Assembly (NCBI GenBank): GCA_025964395.1
Contig: JAOPYY010000051.1
Span: forward strand, 1 to 35,345
Source of the DNA: Actinomycetes bacterium
GTDB taxonomy: Bacteria; Actinomycetota; Thermoleophilia; Gaiellales; Gaiellaceae
DNA: 35,345 nt
Direction of reading: 5' to 3'
Shown: one piece after another, positions 24,058 to 27,567 of the stretch
How positions within the stretch are numbered: the first letter of the stretch is position 1
Layout: every line of letters starts with the position of its first letter
Position numbers and translations under genes: made by a program
The notes under the pieces: model-generated
Database searches by the model: none
What the model was told of the DNA's origin: nothing
The model's input: the letters and a program-made list of their open reading frames with translations, nothing else

Positions 24058-24085
24058 ACTCTAGCGCCCTTTTAATCTTTGTCAA
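24058..24085 (-). promoter_or_regulatory. Sigma70-like promoter for the DNRLRE gene
   Basis: Minus strand TTGACA-N16-TAGAGT, about 42 nt upstream of the ATG at 24016. Confidence 0.5.
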
Positions 24086-24129
24086 CCATAAAGGCGGCCC
24101 GGTCCCGGGCCTGTCTGGATGGTGGGTGC

Positions 24130-24660
24130 CTAGGCGAGCCGTCCGAGGAGACGACGCAGCGTCCCGCGCGTCGCCGGCTCTCCGACGCCGAGCGCCGTGA
24201 CGATCTCGTGCTCGGAGCGGCCTTGCCACACCATCGACTCGATCATCGCCAGCTGTATCCACCGCGCATACTCCTCGCGGTCCGCTCGATCGGCGAGGGC
24301 GCCCGAAACAGTCGCGACGAGCTCGACGCGGCTGAACGGCTTGAACACATGACCGACTGCGCCCGCGTCGACCGCCCGCTGCACGAAGTCGCCCCTGCTG
24401 TGCCCGGTCAGCGCGACGACGGGCACATCACGTTCATGAAGGATCTGACGAGTTGCTTCGACGCCGTCGAGATTCGGCAAGCTCAAATCGATCAGTACGA
24501 GATCCGGCTTGTGCTCGCGCGCGAGGTCGACTGCTTCGATTCCGTCACGTGCATCCGGCACGACCTCGAACCCTGCGTCCTCGAGCATCAGGCGCAGGTC
24601 GGCACGGACGATTGCGTTGTCGTCGACGGTGAGGATGCGGGCTGTTGTAGTGGCCGGCAA
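24130..24660 (-). CDS. Response regulator with C-terminal domain of uncertain class (TTG start proposed)
   Basis: ARILTVDDNAIVRADLRLMLEDAGFEVV...DLVLIDLSLPNLDG...VVALTGHS...FKPFSRVELVATV; AAGGAGGGAGG then TTG at 24660. Confidence 0.85.
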   Translation of the reverse strand: MPATTTARILTVDDNAIVRADLRLMLEDAGFEVVPDARDGIEAVDLAREHKPDLVLIDLSLPNLDGVEATRQILHERDVPVVALTGHSRGDFVQRAVDAGAVGHVFKPFSRVELVATVSGALADRADREEYARWIQLAMIESMVWQGRSEHEIVTALGVGEPATRGTLRRLLGRLA

Positions 24661-24848
24661 ATGAGACCTCCCTCCTTGGGAACAAAAAAAGACCCCAGGC
24701 ATTTGCCCGGGGTCGACAGAGACCGTTGGTCGCGCACCTTCGTGCAACCAAGGTCGAAGGTAGCAGCCGCTGCGACGGTGCCGGAGACTGCAAACTGAAT
24801 CGGTTTGCGGCTACGCGACCGTGAACGAGCCGTTTTTCGCGAAGCGGG
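24661..24848 (-). promoter_or_regulatory. Structured 5' leader containing hairpins and an intrinsic terminator (attenuator/riboswitch candidate)
   Basis: Minus: GTAGCCGC...GCGGCTGCTAC outer pairing; GCAAAC(N7)GTTTGC; GACCTTGGTTGCAC-GAAG-GTGCGCGACCAACGGTC; then GACCCCGGGCAAATGCCTGGGGTC-TTTTTTT; then AAGGAGGGAGG RBS. Confidence 0.55.
24684..24714 (-). terminator. Intrinsic terminator in the leader of the response-regulator gene
   Basis: GACCCC(G)GGCA-AA-TGCC(T)GGGGTC followed by T7 on the minus strand. Confidence 0.8.
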
Positions 24849-26428: not shown

Positions 26429-26492
26429 CGGTATGGCATGCCGGCGCGATCGTCAGGCCTTCACGGCCTTGACGATCGCGCCGTGCATACCG
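26429..26492. repeat. Imperfect 64-bp inverted repeat overlapping the 3' end of arsM (bidirectional terminator candidate)
   Basis: CGGTATG..CGGCGCGATCGTCA-GGCC-TTCAC-GGCC-TTGACGATCGCGCCG..CATACCG. Confidence 0.75.
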
Positions 26493-27229
26493 TCGGCAAC
26501 CTCATGCGTGAACTCGACGGTCACGTCGTCGAAGCCCGCTGCACGCAAGCCCTCGGTGTACTCGGAGGTCGAGAGCGCTCCGGAGATGCAGCCGACGTAG
26601 CTCCCGCGATCCGCGCGCTCCTTCGGGTCGAGCCGGTCCTCAGCGACGACGTCGCTGATGCCGATCCGGCCGCCCGGCTTCAGCACGCGGCCGATCTCGC
26701 GCAGCACCGACGGCTTGTCGGTCGACAGATTGATCACGCAGTTCGAGATCACGACGTCGACGCTCGCGCTGGGGAGGGGGACATCCTCGATCAGGCCCGT
26801 CAGGAACGTCACGTTCACAATGCCTGCGTCGGCAGCGTTGCGGCGCGCGAGCTCGAGCATCTCGTCGGTCATGTCGAGCCCGTACGCGTGCCCGGCAGGG
26901 CCGACGCGCCTGGCGGAGAGGATCACGTCGATCCCGCCGCCCGAGCCCAGGTCGAGCACGGTCTCGCCGTCGCGCAGGTCGGCGACGGCCGTCGGGTTCC
27001 CACAGCCGAGCGATGCGAGCACGGCCGCGTCGGGCAACTCGGCGCGCTGTGAGATGTCGTACAGGGTGGACCCGAACTCTCCGTCCGAACAGCACCCGCC
27101 ATCACCGCAGCCGCACCCGGCGCCGGTCGCAGCCTCCGCGTACTTCTGTCTGACCTCTTCGCGCAGATTTTCGGGGCGCAGATCTTCGGAGCGCAGATCT
27201 TCGGGGCTCAGGTCGTTGGTCGTTGCCAT
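26453..27229 (-). CDS. arsM: Arsenite S-adenosylmethionine methyltransferase
   Basis: VRQKYAEAATGAGCGCGDGGCCSDGEFGSTLYD; VLDLGSGGGIDVILSARRVGPAGHAYGLDMTDEML; VISNCVINLSTDK; SDVVAEDRL; SYVGCISGAL. Confidence 0.93.
   Translation of the reverse strand: MATTNDLSPEDLRSEDLRPENLREEVRQKYAEAATGAGCGCGDGGCCSDGEFGSTLYDISQRAELPDAAVLASLGCGNPTAVADLRDGETVLDLGSGGGIDVILSARRVGPAGHAYGLDMTDEMLELARRNAADAGIVNVTFLTGLIEDVPLPSASVDVVISNCVINLSTDKPSVLREIGRVLKPGGRIGISDVVAEDRLDPKERADRGSYVGCISGALSTSEYTEGLRAAGFDDVTVEFTHEVADGMHGAIVKAVKA
27161..27205 (-). repeat. Three tandem 15-bp repeats in the arsM N-terminal coding region
   Basis: Plus strand GCGCAGATYTTCGGR x3, encoding repeats of (S/R)PE(D/N)LR type. Confidence 0.85.
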
Positions 27230-27567
27230 CAGCAGCACGCCTCCTTCAGGTCGGCGACAGCGGCGAGCTTCGCGACCGCATCGCGCTTCAGTGAGTAGTA
27301 GGCCCACTTGCCTCGCTGCTCACGCTCGAGCAGGCCGGCGTCGTAGAGCTTCTTCAGGTGGTGCGAGACCGTCGGCTGGGAGAGCCCGAGGTCGGTCAGC
27401 TCGCAGCCGCAGACTTCGCCGCCGGCCGTCGCGAGCACGTTGACGATGCGCACGCGTGCGGGATCGCCAAGCGCCCGAAAGAGCGCCGCGGTTCCCTCCG
27501 CCTCCTCGTCGGTGAGGGTGGCGGAGCCGAGCGGCGCGCAACACGCGATCGGCTCGACGGCGAACAT
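27229..27567 (-). CDS. arsR: ArsR-family arsenic-responsive repressor
   Basis: FRALGDPARVRIVNVLATAGGEVCGCELTDLGLSQPTVSHHLKKLYDAGLLEREQRGKWAYYSL; CC at residues 9-10, CGC at 53-55, terminal CC. Confidence 0.93.
   Translation of the reverse strand: MFAVEPIACCAPLGSATLTDEEAEGTAALFRALGDPARVRIVNVLATAGGEVCGCELTDLGLSQPTVSHHLKKLYDAGLLEREQRGKWAYYSLKRDAVAKLAAVADLKEACC

Follow-up and report, generated by a model that had tools for sequence, protein, structure and literature searches.

Transcription antiterminators of the ANTAR type have been described as leader RNAs with two hexaloop hairpins that carry A at loop position 1 (A1) and G at loop position 4 (G4), whereby the second hairpin, P2, lies within a terminator and mostly nitrogen genes are located downstream (PMC3369931, PMC8934654). 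In Enterococcus faecalis, where the linkers of the eut leaders between both hairpins are 5–12 nt long, a linker of 3 nt severely reduced induction, and mutation of loop position 1 weakened the binding of EutV (PMC3369931). For actinobacterial ANTAR RNAs, linkers of 2–25 nt have been accepted and A1 is a majority feature rather than a strict one; few of these RNAs are followed by a terminator, and an overlap with the ribosome site or the start codon is seen in about 37% (Mehta and Ramesh, 2021; PMC8164766). The main text of that study makes no mention of glutamine synthetase or ammonium genes.

The leader described here is located on the minus strand of a window of 35,345 nucleotides (the whole stretch of DNA that was analyzed) from a Gaiellaceae bacterium, between the stop codon of a lipoprotein gene and a gene for a stand-alone receiver (Table 1). 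It is most probably an ANTAR dual-hexaloop transcription antiterminator with a candidate ANTAR protein as its binding partner, which would put the receiver gene into a nitrogen-assimilation regulon; we put the probability of this reading at roughly 0.88. The functional switch is the segment 24750–24684 of the minus strand alone. Its first hairpin, P1, has one A·C mismatch in the stem as well as G1 and G4 in the loop, whereas the P2 loop carries U1 and G4. The 3' arm of P2 (24714–24711) represents the first 4 nt of the intrinsic terminator, and since P2 thus shares the 5' arm of the terminator, the two structures cannot coexist. P2 is the predicted antiterminator hairpin. It is identical to an alternative pairing of CGGTC with GACC that had been proposed in a preliminary description of the locus, in which the terminator, the T7 tract, the 23-nt gap, the Shine-Dalgarno sequence, and the TTG had also been placed correctly. 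The attenuation suggested there, with a terminator that requires read-through, is supported.

Table 1. Features of the leader and of the receiver gene (positions in the window).
Feature	Position	Strand	Basis or remark
Leader between lipoprotein stop codon and receiver-gene TTG	24661–24848	-	~188 nt
GCAAAC-N7-GTTTGC	24808–24790	-	Read in sequence
Predicted -10 promoter element TACCTT	24762–24757	-	TANNNT conservation in related leaders; predicted start ~24750
Long hairpin GACC..GGTC	24755–24721	-	Read in sequence
P1 hexaloop hairpin GGUUGCAC-[GAAGGU]-GCGCGACC	24749–24728	-	Alignment to model R1, covariation
Linker AAC between P1 and P2, 3 nt	24727–24725	-	Sequence; fold of the nascent RNA
P2 hexaloop hairpin GGUC-[UCUGUC]-GACC	24724–24711	-	MFE fold of the nascent RNA, covariation in relatives
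Intrinsic terminator GACCCCGGGC-AAAT-GCCTGGGGTC, 10 bp	24714–24691	-	Terminator scan and fold, -22.0 kcal/mol
U7 tract (T7 in DNA)	24690–24684	-	Sequence
Shine-Dalgarno sequence AAGGAGGGAGG	24677–24667	-	Sequence
Start codon TTG of the receiver gene	24660–24658	-	23 nt from the T-tract
Stand-alone receiver gene	24130–24660	-	TTG start, 176 aa, Pfam Response_reg 3.2e-28
GC-rich hairpin past the stop codon of the receiver gene	24095–24111	-	Sequence

The leaders of eut from Enterococcus (EutV/EutW), nasF (NasR), and amiE (AmiR) likewise combine two hexaloop hairpins, G4 in both loops, an overlap of P2 with the 5' arm of the terminator, and nitrogen-related genes downstream. In contrast to these, P1 starts its loop with G instead of A in 82 of 90 leaders of the model alignment, and the window leader has a very short linker, U1 in P2, and a receiver gene as its target. 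With the published actinobacterial set (PMC8164766), it shares the GC-rich, divergent dual hexaloops, which need a lineage-tuned model; it differs in that 87 of 92 related leaders are accompanied by a terminator, as compared to few there. The preliminary description had held that the sequence does not fit the ANTAR two-hairpin type. It does fit by its hexaloops, by G4 in both loops, and by the overlap of P2 with the terminator, but deviates at loop position 1, so that the strict A1/G4 rule does not hold for the window. Its linker falls outside of the range of the E. faecalis eut leaders and within that of the actinobacterial RNAs. Points against the ANTAR reading are the missing A1, the 3-nt linker, a P2 of only 4 bp, a poor -35 region, the lack of a matching Rfam family that would tie the RNA to an ANTAR protein, and the presence of four competing candidate ANTAR partners. 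We take the leader to be a lineage variant of the ANTAR antiterminators, characterized by G1 in P1, a short linker and, in the window, U1 in P2.

By single-sequence statistics, the leader is modestly unusual and the case is undecided on those grounds alone. A region of 221 nt folds at z = -1.84, whereby 7 of 200 shuffles were equally good, the fold of the whole region merges unrelated stems, and the two terminator-like sites in 4 kb compare to 2.2 expected by chance. Comparison with its relatives places the leader far beyond chance. A covariance model (R1) that was built from three other leaders, with the window left out, scored the window leader with 45.3 bits (E 1.8e-14), and the rest of the window yielded no comparable match. 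R1 and then a refined model from 17 leaders (R2) were run over the family and the order. At E<=1e-3, R2 detected leaders in 65 of the 129 genomes of the order, which amounts to about 90 relatives. In a sample of 399 genomes of the class, only two weak matches occurred outside of the order (G196, G201), and as both lie inside unrelated coding sequence, they were taken as chance matches.

A DNA search of the genome of the window (G000) yielded a second place, on contig C267, that matches the hairpin and the terminator and is located directly in front of another receiver gene. In total, this genome contains three copies of the leader: the one in the window, the one at the second stand-alone receiver on C267, and one in front of glnK-amtB on C1, with the loops GUAGGC and AUCGAG. 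The closest orthologues of the window receiver in other genomes of the family (G073, G011, G094, G124, and also G097) show the same layout in front of the gene, and the leader is present at all six window-type receivers that were found. In each receiver leader, a hairpin with six bases in its loop is followed, after a short linker, by a GGYC-N6-GRCC hairpin, the 3' arm of which opens the terminator. In G011 two kinds of stand-alone receivers are encoded in one operon behind one leader (L069), and in the genome of the window the same two kinds are found apart, with one leader each (the window leader and L067 at G000:C267).

Conservation and covariation were analyzed over 90 leaders. The window and nearly all of the 90 relatives carry two hairpins with six-nucleotide loops and at least 3 bp each within one leader. 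In the model alignment, G4 occurs in 89 of 89 P1 loops and 88 of 89 P2 loops, whereas position 1 of P2 is A in 64 of 85, G in 19, and U in two leaders, one of which is that of the window. The cells of the P1 and P2 pairs are occupied by standard pairs in 95.1% of cases, and 130 compensatory (two-sided) cells were counted compared to 35 in shuffles, which bears out the covariation that the preliminary description had named as a check. The covariation score was 0.406, as compared to at most 0.061 when slid. Since the 90-leader alignment had been fitted to the structure, the hairpins were also parsed independently, without loop size or G4. Here again, six-base loops were the commonest (55 and 60 of 92 for the two hairpins), with G4 in 52 of 55 and 59 of 60, respectively. 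A joint energy parse that forces two hexaloops sometimes takes the terminator loop as P2, also in the window; its P2 and linker tallies were therefore left out and the model alignment was used.

The start of the RNA is suggested by a putative promoter element. A TANNNT motif was found 71 times in 92 leaders at positions -20 to -10 from the start of P1, but the 18 positions that precede -22 contained it only three times. In the window this -10 box is located directly upstream of P1, and the RNA should thus start near 24750; no good -35 region is seen by inspection. Consequently, the stems upstream of ~24757 are probably not contained in the RNA, and 5' stems were rejected as a part of the switch, given that they are separated from P1 by the conserved -10 box. 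This concerns two stems from the preliminary description, namely the outer stem and that of GCAAAC with GTTTGC, which are present in the sequence but probably precede the site at which transcription starts. The alternative pairing of GGTCGCG with CGCGACC proposed there is likewise present in the sequence. The long GACC..GGTC hairpin, which was also part of that description, exists and is largely the P1 hairpin in another register. A start near 24750 probably also excludes the GACC at 24755–24752, which would otherwise be a partner for the 5' arm of P2. The center of the GCAAAC-N7-GTTTGC palindrome lies ~49 nt upstream of the predicted start; it could be an operator or a chance occurrence.

It might be that the terminator simply ends the transcript of the upstream lipoprotein gene, that the receiver gene is transcribed from a separate promoter behind the T-tract, and that the hairpins are not regulatory. 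A terminator ~135 nt past a stop codon would be ordinary, and the -35 region of the window is weak. However, the T-tract and the start codon are separated by only 23 nt, P1 and P2 are conserved and covarying, and the -10 box is located upstream of P1. In addition, the receiver and nitrogen-gene leaders sit on unrelated contigs with different upstream sequences. We consider this explanation very improbable. For the antiterminator, the predicted folding fits: the minimum free energy fold of an RNA of 42–50 nt that starts at 24750 is exactly P1 plus P2, and once the 3' arm of the terminator has been made, the fold changes to P1 plus terminator (-33.0 kcal/mol). The terminator alone accounts for -22.0 kcal/mol, P2 for -5.0 kcal/mol. 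In this model, the order is that expected of a default-off attenuator.

In order to deduce which genes are controlled by the leader, the downstream genes of 92 located matches were read. About 89 of these matches stand in front of genes for glutamine synthetases, GlnK/AmtB, or receivers. Of the 92, 36 are followed by glutamine synthetase I or a relative, 12 by glutamine synthetase II, 7 by PII, 13 by AmtB (often after PII), and 13 by receivers, while 11 remained without a blast call. Eight of the latter were read as AmtB-type transporters, including L145, which was verified by Pfam, another one (L070) is a receiver-type leader without an intact gene behind it, and the other two are L166 and L178, described below. 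Thus, almost the same switch is located in front of the ammonium-uptake and glutamine-making genes of relatives, so that the window receiver gene appears to be wired into the nitrogen response of its lineage. As for the architecture, the conservation, and the covariation, this membership in a regulon is read from the sequences themselves. Several peculiarities were noticed among the leaders. L166 (G006:C10) and L178 (G009:C181), the first hairpin of which fails to parse as a hexaloop, precede a glycosyltransferase-like gene and are the sole cases among the 92 with a target that is neither a nitrogen nor a receiver gene. Tandem dual-hexaloop/terminator units are found in front of an amtB-type gene in L132 (G081:C78), L149 (G082:C29), and L144 (G083:C141). 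Immediately 3' of the U-tract, a TGGTCC(G) is conserved among nitrogen-gene leaders (L071, L072, L074, L076–L083, L086, L087, L091, L096) that the window leader lacks.

A leader that is common to nitrogen genes could also be a riboswitch, in which a metabolite such as glutamine or ammonium drives the terminator without a protein, as attenuators can be driven by ligands. The preliminary description had left this option open while recognizing no known riboswitch consensus. The latter agrees with the Rfam search, in which neither the window leader nor eight related leaders matched any family at the gathering score, riboswitches included. The option itself finds no support, since an extended aptamer with conserved sequence is missing: besides the terminator and position 4 of the loops, only the two small hairpins are conserved, and the layout as well as the loop rule match those of protein-bound ANTAR targets. 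A metabolite riboswitch is therefore hardly to be expected here.

Candidates for a protein partner are available. The genome of the window harbors four ANTAR (PF03861) genes, and in 18 of 58 genomes, compared to 0.8 expected, the distance between a leader and a PdtaR-like ANTAR gene is no more than 12 kb, whereby the genomes are not all independent owing to shared ancestry. In G080 a glnA gene with the leader adjoins genes for a GAF-HisKA_2 kinase and an ANTAR protein. In G115 a receiver and a receiver-ANTAR protein are encoded in one operon behind the leader, which would mean autoregulation. The nearby ANTAR gene resembles the mycobacterial PdtaS-PdtaR system in that it codes for a receiver-ANTAR protein and is accompanied by a GAF/HisKA_2 kinase; the apparent targets here are nitrogen genes, whereas the mycobacterial system has been linked to host-stress, redox, and iron signals (PMC8131098, PMC11537054).

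In the mechanism that we infer, from the binding by an ANTAR protein and the choice of this protein to the signal, the direction of control, and the role of the receiver, transcription would start near 24750 and P1 would form, followed by P2. By default, the stronger terminator would displace P2, and RNA polymerase would stop at the U-tract, in front of the ribosome site. An active ANTAR response regulator would bind to the P1/P2 hexaloops and stabilize P2, so that the terminator would be blocked and read-through into the receiver gene would occur. The receiver would then be expressed along with glnA, glnII, glnK, and amtB, all of which have this leader throughout the family. The most likely regulator would be the PdtaR-like protein encoded at G000:C43, for which a PdtaS-like kinase is the presumed phosphate donor. 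Alternatively, the short RNA that results from termination could work in trans and sequester the ANTAR protein like a sponge, as known from EutX (PMC8934654), with control of the receiver gene being secondary. The terminated product would indeed carry P1, the recruitment hairpin, but the RNA runs straight into a strong ribosome site and a gene, and the same layout heads many structural genes, which leaves the sponge with a very slim chance.

The receiver protein contains neither an ANTAR domain (PF03861, Pfam, even at E<=10) nor any output domain recognized by Pfam. Its identity to the PdtaR-like protein encoded in the same genome is 41%, that to its sister receivers is 46–54%, and alignment with relatives revealed that the phospho-acceptor region and the lysine are retained. 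The GC-rich hairpin after its stop codon suggests a one-gene transcript, and a promoter-like site for the next gene is found at 24085–24058. Elsewhere in the window (26453–27567, minus strand), an ArsR-type regulator gene adjoins a methyltransferase gene that resembles arsenite methyltransferase (Pfam HTH_5, Methyltransf_31). With its phospho-site retained and an output domain missing, the receiver most likely exerts feedback on the phosphorelay. Made while the ANTAR protein is active, it could drain phosphate from the kinase or compete for it. Phosphate-sink receivers and the response-regulator-like protein that exerts feedback on CckA (PMC9430884) likewise lack an output domain and possibly feed back on a kinase; here, unlike there, the receiver gene itself is under the antiterminator. 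A broader, rather doubtful proposal is that a lineage-wide nitrogen regulon runs on the variant ANTAR antiterminator with G1 in P1 and a very short linker, whereby receivers are made only with an active ANTAR protein and then act on its kinase as a feedback brake that is itself an antiterminator target.

With these data, a previously unexplained leader becomes a testable switch that is tied to a regulon of glutamine synthetases, GlnK, AmtB, and receivers in a little-studied lineage, and that would represent a form of terminator-coupled ANTAR control, which has been reported as rare in actinobacteria. The alignment of the leaders can serve as a seed for an RNA family that is missing from Rfam. 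The variant loops and the short linker question what ANTAR proteins require of their targets, which might be G4 but perhaps not A1. Finally, the finding that receivers without an output domain share this switch suggests that two-component antitermination may be designed with feedback.
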